A stretch of 64,000 nucleotides of DNA from Shimia litoralis (GTDB lineage: Bacteria > Pseudomonadota > Alphaproteobacteria > Rhodobacterales > Rhodobacteraceae). Location of the stretch: contig NZ_SULI01000007.1 of the NCBI RefSeq assembly GCF_005518135.1, positions 1 to 64,000 on the forward strand, given 5' to 3'. Under the pieces are notes generated by a model. The model searched no databases. It was given only the letters and a program-made list of their open reading frames with translations, and was not told where the DNA came from. The position numbers and the translations under genes are program-made. Shown piece by piece: positions 1-8,951 of this stretch (positions are counted from its first letter, which is position 1; each line of letters starts with the position of its first letter).

Positions 1-98
1 TGAACATAAACCAGATGCATCTTAGCCAAGCCGCAAACCTGTCCTAAAAAGCAGGACCACTTCAATATTTTTATTCTCAATCTGAACGTAAGCGCCAA

Positions 99-386
99 GT
101 GGAAACTGCTGCTGAAGGGCAGCTGCAATTACATTATCGCGCCTGCGAAATCGTCATGTGGGAATCTCTTCGAGCCTTAGTATCTGCTCAGTTCTATTAT
201 GCACGAACTGATCAAGACGGATACACACAGCAAGACGCACGGCAGTCGTTTGAAAGGGCGCTGCCACATTGCCGTACTGAGGGTGGCTGGTGTTTATCAA
301 ACGATCCTGTGTTCCAACGCTATTTTCAAAAAGCCATTGAGAATAAAGAAAGCGGTTTTTTTAAACCAAACTACTTTAACAATTAA
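99..386 (+). CDS. Hypothetical protein, possibly a C-terminal remnant
   Basis: I do not recognise a family. The frame is open from the stop at 45-47, so coding could begin before the GTG at 99, and no clear ribosome-binding site precedes that GTG. The product is 95 aa, rich in Gln, Arg and aromatic residues, with no membrane segment or signal peptide. It lies left of the tRNA-Phe fragment, so if real it belongs to whatever island occupies the left side. It may be the tail of a larger broken gene or a chance frame. Confidence 0.25.
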   Translation: METAAEGQLQLHYRACEIVMWESLRALVSAQFYYARTDQDGYTQQDARQSFERALPHCRTEGGWCLSNDPVFQRYFQKAIENKESGFFKPNYFNN

Positions 387-531
387 CATGCTCGAGTAAG
401 CATAAAACCTCGTGTTCAACACAGTATTCCCGCCCAATCCTCACAAAATCACCAAAAACACACTTTTACGCACACCAAAAATATGACACGCTATATCACT
501 GTAATTGAACAGTAATCTATCGCCACCTGCA

Positions 532-576
532 TTGAAAATCCTCGTGTCGGTGGTTCGATTCCGCCCCTGGGCACCA
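532..576 (+). other. 3' half of a tRNA-Phe gene (integration att site remnant)
   Basis: The 45 nt run from inside the anticodon loop (TTGAAAA, containing the GAA anticodon) through a full T arm (stem GGTGG/CCGCC around a TTCGATT loop), the acceptor strand CCTGGGC, discriminator A and CCA. The bases before 532 do not pair with the anticodon-stem strand and hold no D arm, so this is not a complete tRNA. A break inside the anticodon loop next to a tyrosine integrase is the usual footprint of tRNA-targeted integration. Identity as tRNA-Phe rests on the anticodon loop and acceptor sequence. Confidence 0.85.
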
Positions 577-603
577 TTATTTTAAATACTGATTTGATAT
601 CAG

Positions 604-1716
604 TTATTTAGATTGCGCTTTTGTCCCACTCGAAACAACCCCATCTAAAAGTGGGACACTTTTGTCCGGTGTTTGTTCCGCAGACATGCGGCGTAGCGCA
701 CTCTCTGCCCTTGTCTTTTGACTGGCGGCACGGGTGTAGCGGGTCACTTCCTTACTGGTCCGGTGGCCCGTAATCGACATAATTTCCTGTTCTGTGCATC
801 CTAGTTCGGCCAGGCGCGCGGCAGCGGCTTTGCGTAGGCCATGAACGGAACAGTTTGAAAGCCCAGCTTCGTCGCACCACTTGCGGAAACGATTGCCAAA
901 GCCATTTGACGTAAACGGGCGGTTGAAGGCCGTGACCAAGAAAGCCAGGTCCCCAGTTGGAGTTTGGTCAATGATTGTCTGTAATTCCTGAATGATTGGA
1001 ATTTCCAAACGGACAGGACTACGGTTTCGCCCCTTGTGCTGGGTGAAGATCAGCCAACCGTCTCGGACATGCTGTTTCCCAAAGACGACCAAATCAGCGC
1101 GTCTTTGGCCGGTGTAGAGAGCCAAGGCAAGGGCAAGCCGTGCTGGTGTCCCTATAGGGTGGGTGTCTTCAAATTTTTCAATCTCTGCTAAGCTCCACGA
1201 ATGGAACCCATCGGCATTGCCTTTGAGGTATTCCACCTTGTCGGCGGGGTTGTCTTCGTGGTGATCATAGCGGAGGGCAAAACGGTAGAGTTGCCGCAGA
1301 GCCTTGACCATGCTGTTCGCGGCCTCCGGGCGATCTGCCATCTCGTCACGGCGGACGCGGATATGGCGGTGAAGCAATAGGGCAAACGGTTTGTCACCAT
1401 CACCTTTATTCTGGCAAAAACGTTCCAGGATCGCGCGGCGGACTTTTTGGGTCCGTGGGTCCAATTCCTGGAACATAGCGCTTTTGAAATATTGAACGCA
1501 AAGCCACCTGATGCTGCGCGGGACAACACGGCCAGTTTGTTCAGTCTTGTTTGTTGGTGATTTTGGTTCGGCAGCGGCGGCGCGATAGTCAAGTAAGAAC
1601 TCAGGCGATCCTGCTGGCCCTCTGAGGCGTGTTTTCCGCCCGTTGCGGCGATAGTATAGTCGCACGTTGCCATGCCTGTCGGTGTCTTCAACAACATACT
1701 TTAACCGAAACTTCAT
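604..1716 (-). CDS. Tyrosine recombinase / site-specific integrase
   Basis: Integrates and excises the element at the tRNA-Phe site 27 bp from its stop codon. The C-terminal catalytic domain shows the family tetrad: Arg in TGQRRADL, His and Arg in HGLRKAAA, the second His in ITGHRTS and the nucleophile Tyr in TRYTRAAS. The N-terminal half carries the SAM-like core-binding region. I chose the ATG at 1716, which has a GAGG motif just upstream; an ATG at 1731 directly follows the excisionase stop (TAGATG), so translational coupling from there is also possible. Length of 370 aa is normal. Transcribed with the excisionase and capsid genes toward the att fragment. Confidence 0.93.
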   Translation of the reverse strand: MKFRLKYVVEDTDRHGNVRLYYRRNGRKTRLRGPAGSPEFLLDYRAAAAEPKSPTNKTEQTGRVVPRSIRWLCVQYFKSAMFQELDPRTQKVRRAILERFCQNKGDGDKPFALLLHRHIRVRRDEMADRPEAANSMVKALRQLYRFALRYDHHEDNPADKVEYLKGNADGFHSWSLAEIEKFEDTHPIGTPARLALALALYTGQRRADLVVFGKQHVRDGWLIFTQHKGRNRSPVRLEIPIIQELQTIIDQTPTGDLAFLVTAFNRPFTSNGFGNRFRKWCDEAGLSNCSVHGLRKAAAARLAELGCTEQEIMSITGHRTSKEVTRYTRAASQKTRAESALRRMSAEQTPDKSVPLLDGVVSSGTKAQSK

Positions 1717-1731
1717 AGCACCCTCGAACAT

Positions 1732-1980
1732 CTATTCGTCCCAGGGATTGTGGTCTGAATCATCGCCACCGGGCAAGGCCTCAAAGAACTTGTCGACTAA
1801 TCGCACGTCCCAAACGCGCCGTCCGTCTATTTTCTTGGGCTTTGGCATCCGTCCATCCGTGACCAAACCGTCGAATTTTGACGTTCCGATCCCAATGTAT
1901 TCAGCCGCTTCAACGCGGGAAAGCCCCCGACGTGTCGGTAAAGGGACGGCGTGAATGTCATGGGACGGCATAGCTTGCAT
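1732..1980 (-). CDS. AlpA-like excisionase / helix-turn-helix regulator
   Basis: Small 82-aa DNA-binding protein with an AlpA/MerR-like winged helix. The central part (GLSRVEAAEYIGIGTSKF, then DGRMPKPKKIDGRRVWDV) matches the pattern of excisionases and AlpA regulators: helix-turn-helix, then a basic wing with P-K-P-K-x-I-x-G-R-x-V-W. Its TAG stop abuts the integrase start region, so int and xis are probably cotranscribed. The ATG at 1980 has GGAG eight bases upstream; a GTG at 1983 and an ATG at 1971 are alternatives. Expected role: directing excision, or activating the element when a helper phage is present. Confidence 0.8.
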   Translation of the reverse strand: MQAMPSHDIHAVPLPTRRGLSRVEAAEYIGIGTSKFDGLVTDGRMPKPKKIDGRRVWDVRLVDKFFEALPGGDDSDHNPWDE

Positions 1981-2074
1981 CACAGTATCTCCGGCTCGTT
2001 ACTGGGTGTGGGTGATCCCCGCCCGCTACGGAAGGGCGTAAGCGGGCGGGGAAATGATCAGGAGCGAAACCCGA

Positions 2075-3946
2075 TCAGGGCGTTTCAATATCCTGGATTG
2101 CTGCAAACGATTCAGCATACCGAACCGCTATGTCCCATTCGGAATGGGCCACAAGTCGGACGTTGCCCTTTGCGGCCTCCGTCACATCATCCACGATTAG
2201 GTCGATTCCGCCCCACTGCCCGATTAGGAGCTCGGACCAAGCTCCAAAGATAAGCGCTGACAAGTCCACACCCGCGCCCTTGGTCAGGTCTGACGGCACA
2301 TTCCCCGAGAACCTGGCTTTGTAACCCGCCAAGCGTAAGCCCTCGGCCGTTGCGGCCGCGTCAGGATCAAGCATCATTGTGTCTGTCCCAGAAATACGTG
2401 GGGTGGACATAAGCCAGCCTTTGACCTTGCGGTTGGACAGAAAACCCAAGGACGCTGGATCAACGTTGGCTGCTTCAACGGTGCTGACAAGCTCCATCAG
2501 CTTGGCCCAGATGACGAAATCGCCGTCCGTCCCCATCGTCACGTCCCCGATACCAGCGATATTCAGTATGCCAGTTGGTTCAGGGGCAATTCCTGTCCCA
2601 GCAATAGCCGCCTTGTCTAGGGCCACCGCAATCTGCGCGCGCAAGTCATTGGTGAGGATTTGGTCTACGGCGGGCAGACTTTGCTTGAGTTGGCGGCGTG
2701 AAATTCTCGTGTGAGCGGAAAGCTGGTGCATGGTCAGGGTCACGGCGTCAAAGCCGGGCGAGGATTCGGCCGCCTCGCTGTTTTCTGCGATCCATTCGGC
2801 GGAGCATCCGGCCGTCTGACGTGGAATGGATACGTTTTCAACCAGGCCAGGCAGGACTGTTGCGCCCAGCTCCATGACCCGGACCTGGGGTTTTAGGACT
2901 TCAACAAAGGCGTCGTGCATCTGCTGCGTGCCGATCAGTGAAGGCGCGGTCCCTGTTGTGACTAAGGCGCGCCCTGCCAATGCAGCTGTGGGGACATAGG
3001 TCCCTGAGGCGCTGCGCCCAATCTGGCCTTGCAGTTCTTGCGAAACCTCACGCTCGAAACCGGCTTGAGACCAATCATTGGTAACTTGAGCTTGAGCGAC
3101 GCGAGACAGGGAGTAGGAACGTTCGGCGGCGGCGATTGCAGGCATACCCATGCGGCTGCGTGTCGTCGGCGCGTCACGTGTCCCCATGTCGTCCAGAATG
3201 GAGAACTGGAATGCGTCAACTGACAAGCCGTCCTTAATCGCGCTTTCAACATCTTCGGAAGGCATGTTGAATTTGCGGCCTAGGAGGGAGATTTCAGATG
3301 CGCGGCGGCGTTCGGAACTAACGGAACCGACAGCCAAGGTAGGCTGGTGTTCCATGGTGGTTGTGGTGGGAGTCGTCATGTTTGAACCTTTCGGAATGTG
3401 AGGGAGGGGCGCGGAAAAACCACCTGCCAGCGTCCGACCGACCCCGACCGTGGGGTCTGCCGGGACCGCGACAAGAGAGACCTCTACCGCTTCCCATTTA
3501 GTGGCGCGTAAAACGGGATACCCGTCTTGTTCGCCCGCTGGTTTCAACTCATGGACGGCGTAACCCACCGATACCGATTGCACTTCACCCGCCTTGATGC
3601 GGGATAGCATTGAGTTGCCTTCTTTCGTGTCTGCAAGCCGCACAACTGCGCGGCCCCGGCGCCCCTCGATCCGGGCGGAAACTACCGTCCCTACCATCGA
3701 GTCCACGTCACGCCGGTGATCTTTGAGGACCGGGGCCGATCCAGTGTTGAGCCGTGACAGGTCAACCTCACTTGGATCATGTCCCAGAACCTCATAGGCC
3801 GTTCCTATCGGAGTATCCCGCAGGACCGGAATTTCGCTCGAGAAGGACAGAAGGACCGTCCGGCCCTGGTCCTCCACCTTCACCTCTGCCGCGACCTGGG
3901 GGCCGAAAGCGGGCGTTTCTAAATCTGCAAATCGCTGGTGTGTCAT
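2075..3946 (-). CDS. HK97-type prohead protease fused to major capsid protein
   Basis: One 623-aa frame holds two head-assembly functions. Residues about 15-165 look like an S78 (HK97 gp4-like) prohead protease, with the His in VLKDHRRDVDS and the Ser in QSVSVGYAV followed by EVSLVAVPADP. From residue 190 the sequence is an HK97-fold major capsid protein: a charged N-terminal scaffold-like stretch, then shell-domain motifs such as SIPRQTAG, TRISRRQLKQS, GTGIAPEPTGI and IDLIVDD. In most phages these are separate adjacent genes. A good internal ribosome site and ATG at 3379 could also give capsid protein alone (434 aa). The upstream gene ends at 3949, three bases before this ATG. No terminase, portal or tail genes are seen nearby. 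Confidence 0.9.
   Translation of the reverse strand: MTHQRFADLETPAFGPQVAAEVKVEDQGRTVLLSFSSEIPVLRDTPIGTAYEVLGHDPSEVDLSRLNTGSAPVLKDHRRDVDSMVGTVVSARIEGRRGRAVVRLADTKEGNSMLSRIKAGEVQSVSVGYAVHELKPAGEQDGYPVLRATKWEAVEVSLVAVPADPTVGVGRTLAGGFSAPLPHIPKGSNMTTPTTTTMEHQPTLAVGSVSSERRRASEISLLGRKFNMPSEDVESAIKDGLSVDAFQFSILDDMGTRDAPTTRSRMGMPAIAAAERSYSLSRVAQAQVTNDWSQAGFEREVSQELQGQIGRSASGTYVPTAALAGRALVTTGTAPSLIGTQQMHDAFVEVLKPQVRVMELGATVLPGLVENVSIPRQTAGCSAEWIAENSEAAESSPGFDAVTLTMHQLSAHTRISRRQLKQSLPAVDQILTNDLRAQIAVALDKAAIAGTGIAPEPTGILNIAGIGDVTMGTDGDFVIWAKLMELVSTVEAANVDPASLGFLSNRKVKGWLMSTPRISGTDTMMLDPDAAATAEGLRLAGYKARFSGNVPSDLTKGAGVDLSALIFGAWSELLIGQWGGIDLIVDDVTEAAKGNVRLVAHSEWDIAVRYAESFAAIQDIETP
3377..3391 (-). promoter_or_regulatory. 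Internal ribosome-binding site and ATG for free capsid protein
   Basis: On the minus strand AAAGG (3387-3391) lies seven bases before an in-frame ATG (3379-3377). This start falls exactly at the boundary between the protease and capsid regions, so translation here would give capsid without protease. The same layout is seen at 4327-4342 in the preceding gene. Confidence 0.55.
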
Positions 3947-3948
3947 GA

Positions 3949-4686
3949 TCAACCGCCCTTTTTCAGAGAGGCCGCGCCCGCGTCGATGTGGGTCGCCAAC
4001 TCAGCAATGGCGGCCGGGCAAAACCCAAATAGCGGCGCGGACTCATGTTCGGCAGCTGCCACAAAACGCTCTAAACGGGACACGCTATCTGTAACCACAC
4101 CCCGCGCCCCGTTTGGGTCCAGTCGATACACCACCAACGCCCCAGGGCCTCTCGTCAAGGCCGCTTCGATCTTGTCCGGGGCGTCGCGTAGGAGGTCTAA
4201 GGCGTCATGTTGTTCGACACCTGCACAATGGATTTCGCGAGTCAGTACCGCCAAACAAGCCGCAACGACGTGCGGCCGACCAAGCTGGATAGTTTCGGTT
4301 GAGCCTGTGGTGTTGTTACCTTTAGTCATGTTTTGATCCTTTGCGGCGGGATTGGGCGGTGAAACGGAATAGTCAGGCCACTTTTTCGCAGGAGGTTTTG
4401 CCAATAGGGCTTGGACGGCGGTAGCGTCGCGCCATCGGATTCCGGCAAACGTCATATTTCCATTGGATTTAATTTTGCGAATGCCGTGTGCGGAAAGTCC
4501 GTCCTGCACAGTCGCGTTTCCGGTTTTCCCATCGCCTAAGGAAATTGGTTCGCCCTGCCAGTCAGCATACCAGGCGGCAAAAGCCTGGTGGAACTCCAAC
4601 GTCGAGGTCCGGCCCCATGGATCGCGGACCGTATATACCGCTAAGAACGAGGTAATAGGATCGTTGGCTGCATTGTCCATTTCCAT
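3949..4686 (-). CDS. Primase-type winged-helix domain joined to an unknown domain
   Basis: Residues about 10-80 resemble the winged-helix tail of phage/plasmid (P4, D5-like) primase-helicases: a TSTLEFHQAFAAWYADW helix, a mid linker, then the wing around NGNMTFAGIRWRD. No primase or helicase catalytic part precedes it. After residue 119 comes an unrelated 126-aa stretch of unknown function that has its own ATG (4329) with AAAGG eight bases upstream. The frame could therefore be a remnant primase tail running by chance into a separate small gene, or a true fusion. The ATG at 4686 has GGGA upstream; a TTG at 4698 is possible. Ends three bases before the protease-capsid start, so the two are translationally linked. 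Confidence 0.6.
   Translation of the reverse strand: MEMDNAANDPITSFLAVYTVRDPWGRTSTLEFHQAFAAWYADWQGEPISLGDGKTGNATVQDGLSAHGIRKIKSNGNMTFAGIRWRDATAVQALLAKPPAKKWPDYSVSPPNPAAKDQNMTKGNNTTGSTETIQLGRPHVVAACLAVLTREIHCAGVEQHDALDLLRDAPDKIEAALTRGPGALVVYRLDPNGARGVVTDSVSRLERFVAAAEHESAPLFGFCPAAIAELATHIDAGAASLKKGG
4327..4342 (-). promoter_or_regulatory. Internal ribosome-binding site and ATG in the winged-helix gene
   Basis: AAAGG (4338-4342 on the minus strand) stands eight bases before an in-frame ATG (4329-4327). The leader closely matches the one before the internal capsid start at 3379 (AAAGG, then a TCAAA-type spacer, then ATGAC). It would yield a 126-aa protein of unknown function. Confidence 0.5.
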
Positions 4687-4699
4687 GCTGATTCCCAAA

Positions 4700-5770
4700 G
4701 TTGATTTGCATTCGACTTAGGAACCAGAGGGTGTGACGATTTTTTCACGTCAACATTTTTTTTGCAAGGCGCGTTCGCACCGTGTTGCAATGGGTAATAA
4801 CTTTGAATTGATGTTAACTAAGAGGGTGCCCCGCAACCCGGTTGGGTCACAGACACGGACACTCCCCAAGATCAGAACATCGCGCGCTAGGGGGAGGCAA
4901 ACGCGGCTGGACCGCAAATGCCCCTTAGGGCACACCAGAACGATGCAATGACCACTGGACCAGTGGATCGGCTAGAGGTGCCGAGAACCGCACCGGCCAG
5001 GACCCCGCGCCCGAATTGAGGACTGATCCCGGCCTGGTGGGGACACCCACGCCTAGCGAAATCCGGCCCGCGAACACAAAAACACGCAACGGCAACTCGA
5101 GATCAACTCAAATCGCACTCCACTGCCCGTCAAACAATAACAACCCCAACCCAAAACCCCACTTGTCCAAGAACCAAAAGCGTCCAAAGAAACGGGGCGC
5201 GAATATACCCACGTTACGCGCTGTAGGAAGGACCCAAACTACTTAGGCCGGTTGGGTGCGCGCGCCTTGGGGACAGGAGGGACGCTGGGGAGGGGGCACC
5301 CGCTGTCTTTTCAAAACATGCTGTTACAGGTGTTTTCCTCATATGCGTTATATACCCCTCCCTAACCTCCCTATAATATGTTGAGTATTGAATTTATTGA
5401 ATAATAAGGCGTTCTACCTCCCCGAGGATATCCCCACCGCATCCCTAGCAAGCGGATTGGCTCCCCGAAACACTCAAAACATTTCACGATTCACCGCCAG
5501 TTCTGTTGGCCTTTCCCCTCATGATCCCTTGCATCATCCCCGAACTCCCCAGTTTGCAGGGTTTTGGAGGGGAGCGGGGAAGGTCGACGTTTCGATTATT
5601 GAACTGCCACCATGTTGGGTTTGATTCGAGCAAATGCCGTCACATTGCGGGGGGGAACGTCCTAATTGTGGCCGGGAAACCTGGTATTAATGCCTTGGAA
5701 GTGTCATAGGTTTCCAGAAATCAATCCCAATGTAGGGCCACTTCTAGGCGCTACATTCTTCGAGGAGCCG
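4700..5770. other. Gene-poor interval at the right side of the integrase element
   Basis: No convincing coding frame on either strand. It holds a perfect 7-bp inverted repeat with a 1-base centre (4952-4966, CCACTGG/CCAGTGG), several G/C-rich clusters and an AT-rich, promoter-like patch near 5340-5400. The leftward promoter of the capsid operon is expected in its left part. I searched for a second copy of the tRNA-Phe 3' sequence that would mark the other end of the element and saw none. Confidence 0.5.
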
Positions 5771-5775
5771 AAGTG

Positions 5776-6218
5776 ATGCCGTTGAACGATAAGCCATTGA
5801 GCTGGGACCCACTAGAGGCGGCCGACACGGTAGACGCAAATGTCCTTGCCTCAGCCAAGAAGCGTGAAATTAAGAATATTCTGAAGTCATATGTTAGCAA
5901 CTATGATCCTCTTTCGGAGTTGATCCAAAATGCGATGGATGCGGTTGAAAAAAGATGCCGGGCTGAGGAAGACGTTATTCCAAAGGTTCAAGTTAATATT
6001 GACCTTACTGACAACTCTATAGAAGTGGTTGATAATGGGTGCGGCTTTGAAGAGGCTGAGTTCAAGGCATTTCTTGCGCCAAGTATCTCTTTTAAATCTG
6101 GAGGAGAAACACGTGGCAATAAAGGTGTTGGCGTCACGTACATCGCATATGGATTTAATGACCTGACAATCCGGACGAAAAACAAACATTTTTCCTTTCA
6201 GGGTACCTTGCGAAGGGG
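5776..6218 (+). pseudogene. GHKL (Hsp90-like) ATPase, truncated by IS insertion
   Basis: The first 147 codons of a GHKL-fold ATPase survive. The ATP-binding motifs are intact: N box ELIQNAMDA (residues 48-56), G1 box VVDNGCGF (about 84-91) and lid/G2 box GNKGVGV (114-120). The ATG at 5776 has GAGGAG upstream. The frame then enters the IS end at 6219, which adds a few foreign codons and a stop. Everything after the ATP lid is missing, and no matching continuation is visible past the other IS end. Large GHKL ATPases of this type often sit in phage-defence and mobile islands, but the specific system cannot be told from this fragment. Confidence 0.75.
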
Positions 6219-6292
6219 TGTCCGTCGTCAGAGTTTTCTGGAGAACTGAGCGTTTTTGCTAACCGAGGCTCTGGTTCATCATTGGGTTCATA

Positions 6293-7273
6293 TTAGGCGG
6301 CAGCTTTCTGGTGCTGCAAGCGGCGTTTCTGGATTGTCTGTTTCTTGATCCTCTTCCTTTCTCTGAGAATGGTTTCAGCCCTGCCAAAGTAGACATCGGC
6401 CGGTGTGACGTTGTTCAGGCTCTCGTGGTAACGTCGGTGATTGTAGTAGTCGACGAAGGCCTCGATCTGCTGTTCCAGGTCACCGGGCAGATAGTAATGC
6501 TCAAGCAGGACCCGGTTCTTCATCGTTTGATGCCAGCGCTCGATCTTGCCTTGGGTTTGTGGATGGAACGGTGCACCTCGAACGTGATCCATGCCTTTTT
6601 CTTCCAGCCAATTGGCCAGATCGCCGGCAACGTAGGATGAGCCATTGTCGCTGAGCAGGCGCGGTTTGTGCAGAACCGTGGCCTGATCACAACCCGATGC
6701 GGCCAATGCCAGGTCCAGCGTGTCTGTGACGTCGCCTGCTTTCATTGTCGTGCAAAGCTTCCATGAGATGATGTAACGGCTGTAATCGTCCAGGATGGTG
6801 CTGAGATAGAACCACCCCCATCCGATGACTTTCAGGTAGGTGAAGTCGGTCTGCCAGAGCTGGTTGATGGCCGTTGTTTTGTCTTTGAACTCTTCGGCGG
6901 CCTTAATCACCACAAAAGCCGGGCTGGCAATCAGATCCTGCTCTTTCAGCCGCCTGTACACAGTGGATTCCGACACGAAGTAACGTTTGGTGTCGGTGAA
7001 CTTCACCGCCAGTTCTCGTGGCGTCAGGTCTTCGTTTTCCAGTGCGAAGTCGATGATCTGGTCTCGCATGTCGTCAGGGACACGGTTCCACACCGATCTG
7101 GGCTTTGGGGATTTGTCATGCAGAGCATCCAATCCGCCATCCAGATAAAGGTCATACCAACGATAAAACGTAGAACTGGGGATATCCAACATTTCCAGCG
7201 TCTGTTTTGCTGGCAGATGCGAGGCTTCAACCGTTCGAATGATCTCAAGCTTCTCAGAGGCTGGGTATCTCAT
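6293..7273 (-). CDS. IS3-family transposase OrfB (DDE integrase domain)
   Basis: 326-aa catalytic part of the transposase. An N-terminal helix-turn-helix region precedes an rve-type DDE domain: first Asp in QTDFTYLKV, second Asp in LLSDNGSSY, and the Glu in HPQTQGKIERWHQ. Its ATG overlaps the orfA stop (ATGA), so it can be made alone by coupling or as an OrfAB fusion by -1 frameshifting at 7302-7308; the -1 frame between that site and this start is open. All catalytic residues are present, so the copy may be active. Confidence 0.93.
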   Translation of the reverse strand: MRYPASEKLEIIRTVEASHLPAKQTLEMLDIPSSTFYRWYDLYLDGGLDALHDKSPKPRSVWNRVPDDMRDQIIDFALENEDLTPRELAVKFTDTKRYFVSESTVYRRLKEQDLIASPAFVVIKAAEEFKDKTTAINQLWQTDFTYLKVIGWGWFYLSTILDDYSRYIISWKLCTTMKAGDVTDTLDLALAASGCDQATVLHKPRLLSDNGSSYVAGDLANWLEEKGMDHVRGAPFHPQTQGKIERWHQTMKNRVLLEHYYLPGDLEQQIEAFVDYYNHRRYHESLNNVTPADVYFGRAETILRERKRIKKQTIQKRRLQHQKAAA

Positions 7274-7650
7274 GCCTCGTCCTCCCCATCCCCGATCATG
7301 CTTTTTTTGAGCAGCCGGTTCTCAAGGGTCAGTTCCGCCACGACCTCTTTCAGGGCTGCAGACTCAGACCGCAAATCCTTCACCTCAGGCGAAGTGGCCT
7401 GACGGGCCGTATCGCCCGCCAAACGGCGCTTCCCGGCTTCAAGAAACTCTTTCGACCAGCTGTAATACAGGCTCTCAGAGATGCCTTCCTGGCGGCACAA
7501 GGAGGCGATGCTTTCTTCGCCTCGCAGCCCTGCCAGAACAACGCGGATCTTCTCCTCGGCTGAGTAATGCCTGCGGGTTTTGCGGCGAATGCTTTTCACT
7601 ACCTTGTCAGCAGCGGCTTTCGATTGTCCGGATTTCTGTCTCATCTTCAC
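7270..7650 (-). CDS. IS3-family transposase OrfA (helix-turn-helix)
   Basis: 126-aa DNA-binding subunit. The helix-turn-helix lies in RRHYSAEEKIRVVLAGLRG and following SIASLCRQEGISESLYYSW; the tail (LRSESAALKEVVAELTLEN) is a leucine-rich coiled coil of the type that multimerises OrfA and OrfAB. It carries the poly-A slippery stretch described at 7302-7308 and ends in a 4-base overlap with orfB. Confidence 0.9.
   Translation of the reverse strand: MKMRQKSGQSKAAADKVVKSIRRKTRRHYSAEEKIRVVLAGLRGEESIASLCRQEGISESLYYSWSKEFLEAGKRRLAGDTARQATSPEVKDLRSESAALKEVVAELTLENRLLKKSMIGDGEDEA
7302..7308 (-). promoter_or_regulatory. Poly-A slippery site for OrfAB -1 frameshift
   Basis: Seven consecutive A residues on the minus strand, near the end of orfA (codons AAA AAA AGC). 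Slipping back one base leads into an open frame (AAG CAT GAT ...) that joins orfB without a stop. This is the standard way IS3 elements make the active fused transposase. Confidence 0.65.
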
Positions 7651-8030
7651 TCCATATCAGTTCCGATGAACCAGAAATCCTCCGTTACTCAAACCCTCAA
7701 ATCTCTCCAACAAGCGCTGACGTCAGACAGGACCCAAAAACTCTGCCGACGCACAATAATGGTCTCAACCGAATGCGTCTTAGTTGCAACCCAGAAGTGT
7801 GCGGCCACTTTGGGCTCGAAGCCGCCTTGCGGCGGTGCGGCAGCACGGTTGCAGCGAAATCTTCTCAAACCGAACCACCTAAAGGACCGCTCCCAGCCCA
7901 AAGCAGACATGGCATTTCGACAACACGGGGCGGATGTAGTGAACGGCCCAAAGCGGACATCAACGGTATTTTGGAATCCTACGATTCAGCGCCGCCGAAG
8001 CCGATATTGTTGCATGAAAAACCTCTGTGC

Positions 8031-8951
8031 TCAGTTTCGTTTCATAAACAAGGAGCGTTGATTTTTCTTCTTGTAAGTCCAAGCAATAAAGCGGCTTGTC
8101 TTTTGCCCCTGCGCCATTTCGACGACTTTATAGTCAGTAACCCCAGCTCTTTTTAGAATTCGGGAGAGGGGCTGGAGGTTGTCTTTTTTCGACACCAATG
8201 ATGTAAACCATAGGCACTGATCGGCGAACTCCATGCTTTGTTCAACCATGCGGGCAATAAACTTAATCTCGCCGCCGGGACACCAAAGCTCATCACTTTG
8301 CCCACCAAAATTGAGGTTTGTTGAACGCCCTTTGCCAAGGTTGGCCCATTTACGTTGAGTCCCCTTGCGCGCTTTCTCGATAGACCCATGGAAAGGTGGA
8401 TTGCACATGGTGAGGTGAAAGACATCGTTAGGCTGGATCACACCGCGAAAGATGTTCTCACGCTTGCTTTGCCGCCTAAGTGTTATTGCCAATTTGTTTC
8501 GGTCACAAATTTGCTTTGCCGATTTGATCGCCCCCGCGTCGATATCGACGCCAGTGAAGTGCCAGCCGTACTCACTCTGCCCGGTAAGGGGGTAAACCAA
8601 GCTTGCACCAGTGCCGATGTCCAACGCTTTGATATGATGCCCACGTGGGATCTCTTGGTTGTTGCTTTCCGCAAGCAAGTCCGCGAGATAGTGGATGTAA
8701 TCGACCCGGCCGGGAATTGGTGGGCATAAGTAACCGGCGGGAATGTCCCAAAAATCAACCTCGTAATGCGCCTTTAGCAAAGCCCGATTCAGCATACGGA
8801 TCGCGTTCACGTCTTTAAAGTCAATCGTATTTTGACCGGCAGGATTACGGGTCATGAAGGCTTCTAGATCAGGCATCTGCGCCATCAAACGTTCGAAATC
8901 ATACCCTTCTGAATGCTGATTGCGGGGGTGCAGCTTCGATTTTGTGGCCAT
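8031..8951 (-). CDS. rlmF: 23S rRNA (adenine-1618-N6) methyltransferase RlmF
   Basis: Class I SAM-dependent methyltransferase that N6-methylates A1618 of 23S rRNA. SAM motif I is DIGTGASLVYPL, the acidic loop GVDIDAGAI follows, and the catalytic N6-adenine motif is NPPF in MCNPPFHGS. The ATG at 8951 gives 306 aa, close to the enterobacterial protein, and begins with the typical HPRN...YDF region; the frame is open further upstream but that part looks non-coding. The gene stands alone between two IS elements and beside non-conserved spacer, and this family is better known from gammaproteobacteria and Bacteroidetes, so transfer is plausible but unproven. Confidence 0.9.
   Translation of the reverse strand: MATKSKLHPRNQHSEGYDFERLMAQMPDLEAFMTRNPAGQNTIDFKDVNAIRMLNRALLKAHYEVDFWDIPAGYLCPPIPGRVDYIHYLADLLAESNNQEIPRGHHIKALDIGTGASLVYPLTGQSEYGWHFTGVDIDAGAIKSAKQICDRNKLAITLRRQSKRENIFRGVIQPNDVFHLTMCNPPFHGSIEKARKGTQRKWANLGKGRSTNLNFGGQSDELWCPGGEIKFIARMVEQSMEFADQCLWFTSLVSKKDNLQPLSRILKRAGVTDYKVVEMAQGQKTSRFIAWTYKKKNQRSLFMKRN

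Follow-up and report, generated by a model that had tools for sequence, protein, structure and literature searches.

The first 64,000 nucleotides of contig NZ_SULI01000007.1 of Shimia litoralis (assembly GCF_005518135.1; this whole stretch is called the window below, and it starts at base 1 of the contig, C67 in our numbering, in which loci, genomes and contigs carry the letters L, G and C) contain a short series of leftward genes next to part of a tRNA-Phe gene, one of which encodes a phage capsid protein. What purpose could a capsid gene serve in an element that appears to have nothing with which to fill or complete a capsid? The initial annotation placed the element at 532-4698 and left two possibilities, a decayed relative of the capsid-forming phage-inducible islands (cf-PICIs) or a smaller class that makes only a shell. 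We conclude that the window probably holds a damaged copy of a member of a Rhodobacterales family of cos-type satellites, which make their own small shell and borrow terminase, portal and tail. The integration at tRNA ends, the gene set, the copied cos site and the variable cargo can be read directly from the compared elements; that the elements are mobilised and form shells is what we infer from them.

Gene set, relatives and integration sites

The four leftward genes predicted earlier proved real. The tyrosine integrase gene int (604-1731, minus strand, 375 aa, open frame) matches PF00589 (E 1.1e-17), and beside it on the same strand lies a gene for a small xis/AlpA-like DNA-binding protein (1732-1983, 83 aa) that matches phrog_25900 ('transcriptional regulator', E 1.6e-11). 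It also matches phrog_66 ('excisionase and transcriptional regulator', E 3.9e-5) and, below the cut-offs, Tn916-Xis (E 0.002) and TIGR01764 (E 0.0021), so that the name AlpA-like is reasonable, but lacks a curated match. The central gene (2075-3946, minus strand, 623 aa, open frame) encodes a fusion of prohead protease and major capsid protein, in which Peptidase_S78 (PF04586, E 1.1e-8) and Phage_capsid (PF05065, E 2.4e-35) each score above the cut-off and which corresponds over its whole length to phrog_617 ('major head protein', E 2.3e-121). Residues H77, S126 and E155 of the protease part are invariant among the aligned capsids and would fit the catalytic set of S78 peptidases.

The fourth open reading frame (ORF; 3949-4686, minus strand), earlier described as a primase-type winged helix, had no match in Pfam, PHROG or NCBIfam and corresponds to two genes in the relatives. 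One, which immediately precedes the capsid gene, is specific to the family and encodes a protein of ~125 aa (3949-4329, minus strand); in the window it is fused in frame to the other, the C-terminal remnant (4402-4686, minus strand, delimited by tblastn with the proteins of the relatives) of a helix-turn-helix (HTH)/winged-helix gene of ~314 aa that has lost its first ~215 residues. The small protein (54-95% identity among aligned members) gave a model with pLDDT 82 and pTM 0.72, for which no match in the PDB was found at E <= 0.001 (the best was a MerR regulator, E 0.12); the model of the HTH/winged-helix protein was poor (pLDDT 62). The likeness to primases is real and weak: the full-length homologue of L009 matches, at 27-30% identity, the C-terminus of a primase/helicase-type ORF found in two helper-type phages, and the homologue of L011 matches a primase PHROG at E 0.0039. 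Because its C-terminal domain resembles the end of these helper primases, it is possible that the HTH gene takes part in replication.

A capsid scan of the genome contigs returned nine loci at 81-96% identity (L005-L013), which together with the window form group I; the diverged L026/L061, L036 and L037 form group II. The capsid gene, the xis-like gene (72-82% protein identity) and int follow one another in this order in eight of the nine loci, L013 consisting of a capsid fragment; the int gene of L006 is shortened. The small gene precedes the capsid gene in seven (not in L010 and L013; it is frameshifted in L007 and cut by the contig end in L008), and the HTH/winged-helix gene is found in five (L005, L006 in part, L007, L009 and L011). 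Six of the nine have a capsid frame of full length, with an altered C-terminus in L009; the frame is shifted in L011 and has an internal deletion in L012. Capsid matches at E <= 1e-30 occurred in 11 of 394 genomes of the Rhodobacteraceae, four of these being of the satellite family (100, 87, 56 and 56% identity) and seven at 31-39% identity. The small-protein alignment (E <= 1e-8) matched 6 of 390 genomes of the order, namely the window genome, G026, G134, G554 (the host of L026), G426 (with locus L012) and G547 (a remnant only).

The fragment of tRNA-Phe seen earlier beside int (46 nt of the 3' part, 531-576, plus strand; the 5' half is absent here) is an exact copy of part of an intact tRNA-Phe gene on contig C26. 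It forms the integrase-side attachment (att) site, adjoins int and is placed relative to it as the intact tRNA genes are in relatives. Five complete elements, of 7,991-8,976 bp, are bounded by direct repeats of tRNA 3' ends: L009 (8,144 bp) and L011 (7,991 bp) lie at tRNA-Glu between exact repeats of 17 bp, and L036 (8,633 bp), L037 (8,272 bp) and L061 (8,976 bp) at tRNA-Cys between repeats of 47 bp that are 96% identical in L036 and exact in the other two. The recurrence at tRNA-Phe that the initial annotation envisaged therefore holds for only part of the family, the window and L005, L006 and L012; in L006 and L012 an intact tRNA-Phe gene lies beyond int and in L005 a tRNA-Phe 3' part, and a second att repeat for these three was not found within the stretches examined. 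The integrase of the window is 85% identical to that of L005, 83% to that of L012 and 71% to those of L007-L011, while the capsids remain at 87-88% (83% for L010). Since capsid identity stays level while integrase identity varies, the integration site goes with the integrase.

The cos site

Upstream of the HTH remnant lies about 1 kb without long ORFs (4740-5760), for which a coding function was considered and ruled out, the alignment revealing a conserved non-coding site. This site, a stretch of ~100 bp, has been conserved across the divergence of groups I and II, and its position relative to the cargo and the HTH gene differs among elements. In the window it lies at 5137-5235 (minus strand), as located by a profile of phage cos sites and by an exact-pattern match, and the comparison with phage genome ends shows that it copies the cos site found in Cronusvirus-type phages. 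The limits first given to the element were thus too short, as this site and the truncated cargo gene at 5773-6249 also belong to it.

The exact pattern was found in 4 viral contigs (5 with a looser pattern) and in 6 of the 394 genomes, against none of 394 for the reversed pattern; four of the six genomes have satellites, G294 has a helper-type prophage (L034) and G317 has Gabija genes. In L024 and L027 the motif stands directly before the genes of the small and large terminase subunits (TerS and TerL), which in L024, a viral contig of 37 kb that does not differ from L034 in the proteins searched, are followed by portal, protease-capsid and tail genes. A typed cos consensus met RcRhea, RcCronus and RcSaxon in a BLAST search exactly at the ends of their records, at an E value (3) no better than that of two unrelated matches in the same list; we count these Rhodobacter phage matches only for their exact coincidence with the ends of the records and for the outcome of the profile test described below. 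For these three phages, defined genome ends with 13-base 5' overhangs have been published (PMC4882933; extract of PMC8601537). The RcCronus record ends with AACGTG-GGTTCCTTCGCGC and starts with GGTTCCTTCGCGC-CGCGTTGC, and these ends lie inside the cos motif; the 13-base terminal repeat aligns with GGTATATTCGCGC in the window (5197-5209, minus strand), the equivalent of cosN.

Because the exact pattern had been derived from satellites, an independent profile was built from phage sites only (RcCronus, L024, L027 and L025). It matched the window site at E 2.1e-14, its sole match in the window below E 1. Of the 15 targets (the window and 14 other loci), 10 had a match at E <= 3.3e-6; among 62 base-shuffled control sequences the lowest E value was 4.1. 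The weakest match (E 3.3e-6) was to L035, in which no capsid gene was found. The profile had no match in five loci: the stretch of L008 begins inside the small gene and that of L005 ~0.8 kb short of the HTH gene, in L006 and L010 the HTH gene is incomplete or absent, and L059 is no more than a remnant. In the five complete elements the cos site occurs once each.

Helper genes and the proposed satellite shell

The window and 17 loci (12 satellites and 5 others) were searched by tblastn (E <= 1e-4) with the TerS, TerL, portal, head-tail joining, tail-tube and tail-chaperone proteins of RcCronus and L024 and with the tape-measure protein of L024. None of these was found in the 64 kb of the window, in agreement with the initial annotation, which had seen no terminase, portal, connector, tail or lysis gene in the element, and neither was a functional Cronusvirus-type prophage, with terminase, portal and tail genes after a cos site. 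The homologous loci do not, as had been considered, always carry terminase, portal and tail genes that are missing only here: TerS, TerL, portal and joining proteins of RcCronus and L024 had no match in the 12 satellite loci and L061 (the result for L061 is that for L026), the two joining proteins being the only queries for head-tail connectors. Among the 12 satellites the capsid alone matched the helper set, together with the tail tube in group II; L024 and L034 matched the helper queries throughout. By Pfam profile one terminase and one portal family were searched, PF05876 (GpA-terminase) and PF05136 (lambda-type portal), and neither gave a match within the elements of genomes G000 (that of the window), G026, G134, G554 and G169; both profiles do detect the prophage of G294.

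The window genome does have regions with GpA-type terminase and lambda-type portal on contigs C24 and C84, as well as a partial terminase on C27, and a helper resident in this genome was considered and rejected, the terminases of C24 and C84 being 23-24% identical to helper-type ones. On the stretches of C84 and C24 (13.0 and 10.0 kb) the cos profile gave nothing better than E 2.5, and the cos pattern with <=3 mismatches found the window site alone in the whole genome (one match for the reversed control). The TerL of L024 had no match in the window's own genome, an empty result of little weight alone. Both regions are prophage-type (L071, G000:C84:112000-125000, and L072, G000:C24:5000-15000), one with a protease domain 37-39% like that of the helper.

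The capsid of the window is 83-88% identical to those of six close relatives and 38% identical to Cronusvirus-type capsids; for helper and satellite capsids in general the identity is 36-38%, over nearly the full length. In a tree of 23 rows (midpoint root, two long rows of unsure placement) the capsids of group I (seven) and group II (three) fall into a single clade with support 100/100 that contains no sampled phage, and RcCronus with L024 branches as its sister at 82/97, which is suggestive of a sister lineage. The ratio of nonsynonymous to synonymous substitutions (dN/dS, Nei-Gojobori) between the window capsid and six close relatives is 0.084-0.124, well below 1 as expected earlier for a maintained element; it is 0.202 against two group II capsids, with a maximum of 0.344 over all 36 pairs. 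These values point to purifying selection as an average of the family, not specific to the window copy. A plain relic, a Cronusvirus-type prophage stripped of most of its genes, is a very improbable explanation. The window copy would fit it, as one of its genes is without the N-terminal part, its cargo gene is incomplete and its second att site is missing. Against it, the same small gene set recurs in other genera between exact att repeats with one cos each, the small and HTH genes are specific to the satellites, the capsids form a clade of their own without sampled phage, and selection on them is purifying. The proposal of a smaller class that makes only a shell holds for the family in this respect (intact frames, several genera and low dN/dS) and is incomplete in that a helper-type cos is also carried.

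In the satellite reading that we prefer, an active Cronusvirus-type helper would cause the satellite to excise and to be replicated as concatemers, and the protease-capsid fusion would build and mature a small shell around the helper portal. The helper terminase would recognise and cut the satellite cos and load ~8-9 kb into this shell, and the helper tail would complete the particle. The shell is expected to be small because the elements are about one quarter of the 36-kb helper. A more specific version, to which we give equal measures of belief and doubt, is a shell-only class in which a single protease-capsid chain makes a full small procapsid, takes in the portal of a foreign helper and has its DNA loaded by a foreign terminase at a stolen cos, different satellites replacing different structural parts of one helper type. 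The latter would follow from group II, where there is in addition a gene for a tail-tube protein with 65-66% identity to that of RcCronus (L026 5854-6243, L036 10168-10551 and L037 9772-10158), despite capsids that are ~36% identical to that of the same phage.

The same capsid gene could also act by interference, the satellite protein co-assembling with the helper capsid and shrinking it (Ccm-like, at pentamers) or poisoning it, with the DNA in mixed small heads or as multimers in full heads. Ccm of the cos-type SaPIbov5, a capsid homologue 24% identical to that of its helper, works in this way according to the part of PMC8569155 consulted; moreover, a 36-kb head would be full with four copies of an 8-9 kb element, and packaging of concatemers is described for PICMIs in an extract of PMC10803314. 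Nevertheless, protease and capsid are kept in one full-length chain and both are conserved, which is more than co-assembly needs, and in the SaPIbov5 genome, by contrast, no protease has been identified according to PMC8569155. We therefore regard interference as unlikely, though less so than a relic.

Several observations weigh against our preferred satellite reading. The scan of viral contigs with the capsid gave no close relative; the small-protein alignment met 104 stretches of viral contigs with only one relative among them, L026, and this only satellite from viral contigs is identical in sequence to part of a sampled genome. Damaged copies are many (L006, L007, L011, L012, L013, L059 and the window). 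A satellite and a close helper terminase occurred together in no sampled genome: TerL matches at E <= 1e-80 were found in 9 of the 394 genomes, of which only that of G294 is closely related and the rest are 38-44% identical, and the four satellite genomes are outside these nine. The fit of the satellite shell to the helper portal is not obvious, since the capsids are only 36-38% identical, and excision, packaging and particles are predicted from sequence.

Cargo, the window copy and known satellites

The cargo gene of the window, of which the 5' part is left (5773-6249, plus strand), encodes a HATPase (GHKL-type) domain (PF13589) and is 51-52% identical to the intact genes of L007, L010 and the helper-type prophage L034. 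The same kind of cargo lies at 222-2195 in L007, at 373-2346 in L010 and at 6746-8716 (minus strand) in L034, upstream of the cos site of the latter; the proteins of L007 and L034 are 67% identical, as if helpers and satellites share this cargo. L011 has AIPR/AbiU-like cargo, and the cargo proteins of L012 (8356-9366, minus strand, 336 aa) and L036 (5088-6131, minus strand, 347 aa), both without a Pfam match, have N-termini that are alike by eye. PADLOC matches for the HATPase (TmtA), TIR and AbiU proteins are weak and only hints; that for Gabija in L035 is strong. In L035 (G317:C56, a 10 kb contig) a cos-like site (3287-3384, minus strand) lies beside the GajA/GajB pair of Gabija (genes 3702-8029), and this locus may be a further satellite that uses this type of helper. 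A TIR gene of L005 was considered as cargo and rejected, its position being on the far side of int and the tRNA part and next to a second integrase gene; it is therefore part of a neighbouring element and was not counted.

With such cargo one might think of a host-serving defence island, in which capsid and cos act as decoys or triggers and the cargo protects the cell, the island having no transfer of its own. The resemblance of the cargo to defence genes (AIPR/AbiU-like in L011, HATPase in L007 and L010) and the HATPase cargo near the cos of a helper-type prophage would be in line with this. We consider it as improbable as the relic, as conserved int and xis-like genes, exact or near-exact att repeats and sites that vary by lineage with the integrase fit a moving element.

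The copy in the window itself is evidently damaged, so that 'decayed relative' stands for this copy. Its HTH remnant runs in frame into the small gene, ~215 residues being gone, and its cargo gene covers the first ~140 of 657 residues and is followed by a two-ORF insertion sequence outside the satellite (6293-7650, minus strand, PF00665/PF13683 (rve) and PF01527) and then by an RNA methyltransferase gene. A second att site was not found for it; the capsid and integrase frames are open. The copy can probably no longer move. The tRNA part in the window, the intact tRNA gene on C26 and the arrangement in L005 suggest that another element later inserted at tRNA-Phe, as judged from two contig ends that cannot be joined. 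In L005 (5590-10343) a TIR-domain gene and another integrase lie beyond int and the tRNA-Phe 3' part, apparently a second element at the same tRNA. Window positions 1-530 and positions 1-477 of L003 (C26) share short repeats (GTGTTCAACACAG and others) beside the tRNA-Phe copies, which may stem from another integrated element or represent arm sites of an integrase.

The nearest analogue of the family is SaPIbov5, a cos-type staphylococcal PICI, with its Ccm. SaPIbov5, PmCI172 and EcCICFT073 combine a helper-type cos with a capsid homologue (extracts of PMC8569155 and PMC6092414), and so does the window family, whose capsid is 36-38% identical to that of its helper type. According to extracts of PMC6092414, PmCI172 encodes a capsid homologue and forms small capsids, and EcCICFT073 has a capsid homologue yet is packaged in full-sized heads. 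The window family differs in its hosts and surrounding genes, in the tail-tube gene of group II and in a capsid fused to a protease, whereas for SaPIbov5 no protease has been identified and shells are not formed by Ccm on its own (PMC8569155). It resembles cf-PICIs in having its own capsid and protease, an integrase, small size and use of a helper tail, but cf-PICIs also encode a portal, head-tail connectors, both terminase subunits and HNH (extract of PMC10690885) and average 14 kb (extract of PMC10803314), against 8-9 kb with a helper-type cos here. The family is not to be placed among the cf-PICIs, because portal and terminase were tested for and none of the searched kinds was found.

Cronusvirus (RcCronus, RcRhea and RcSaxon) and L024/L034 share the cos motif and are the nearest sampled capsid lineage, but are full phages of ~36 kb with terminase, portal and tail, whose capsids are 36-38% identical to those of the satellites. 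P4-like satellites and PICMIs are likewise small, integrated and dependent on helper packaging. In P4, Sid resizes the helper capsid and the helper terminase is used at cos (extract of PMC10690885), and PICMIs are sited at fis, have a primase and are described without a capsid-remodelling gene in the excerpt of PMC10803314; in the window family att lies at tRNA-Phe, -Glu or -Cys instead of fis, and the ORFs scanned, part of those of the elements only, gave no Pfam match to a DUF3987/DUF5906 primase. The elements described in PMC12324425 are without the HK97-fold capsid. In the open-licence PMC literature, without subscription journals, we found no satellite of such kind described for Rhodobacterales or alphaproteobacteria.

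If true, the satellite reading raises the question of how a shell works with the portal of a phage whose capsid is 36-38% identical. The likely helper type is an isolated laboratory phage lineage with published cohesive ends, so that the idea is directly testable. With its shell and protease joined in a single chain, the family would bridge satellites that reshape the shell of a helper (P4, SaPIs) and those equipped with a complete set for head and packaging (cf-PICIs), and would extend phage satellites to the Rhodobacterales.

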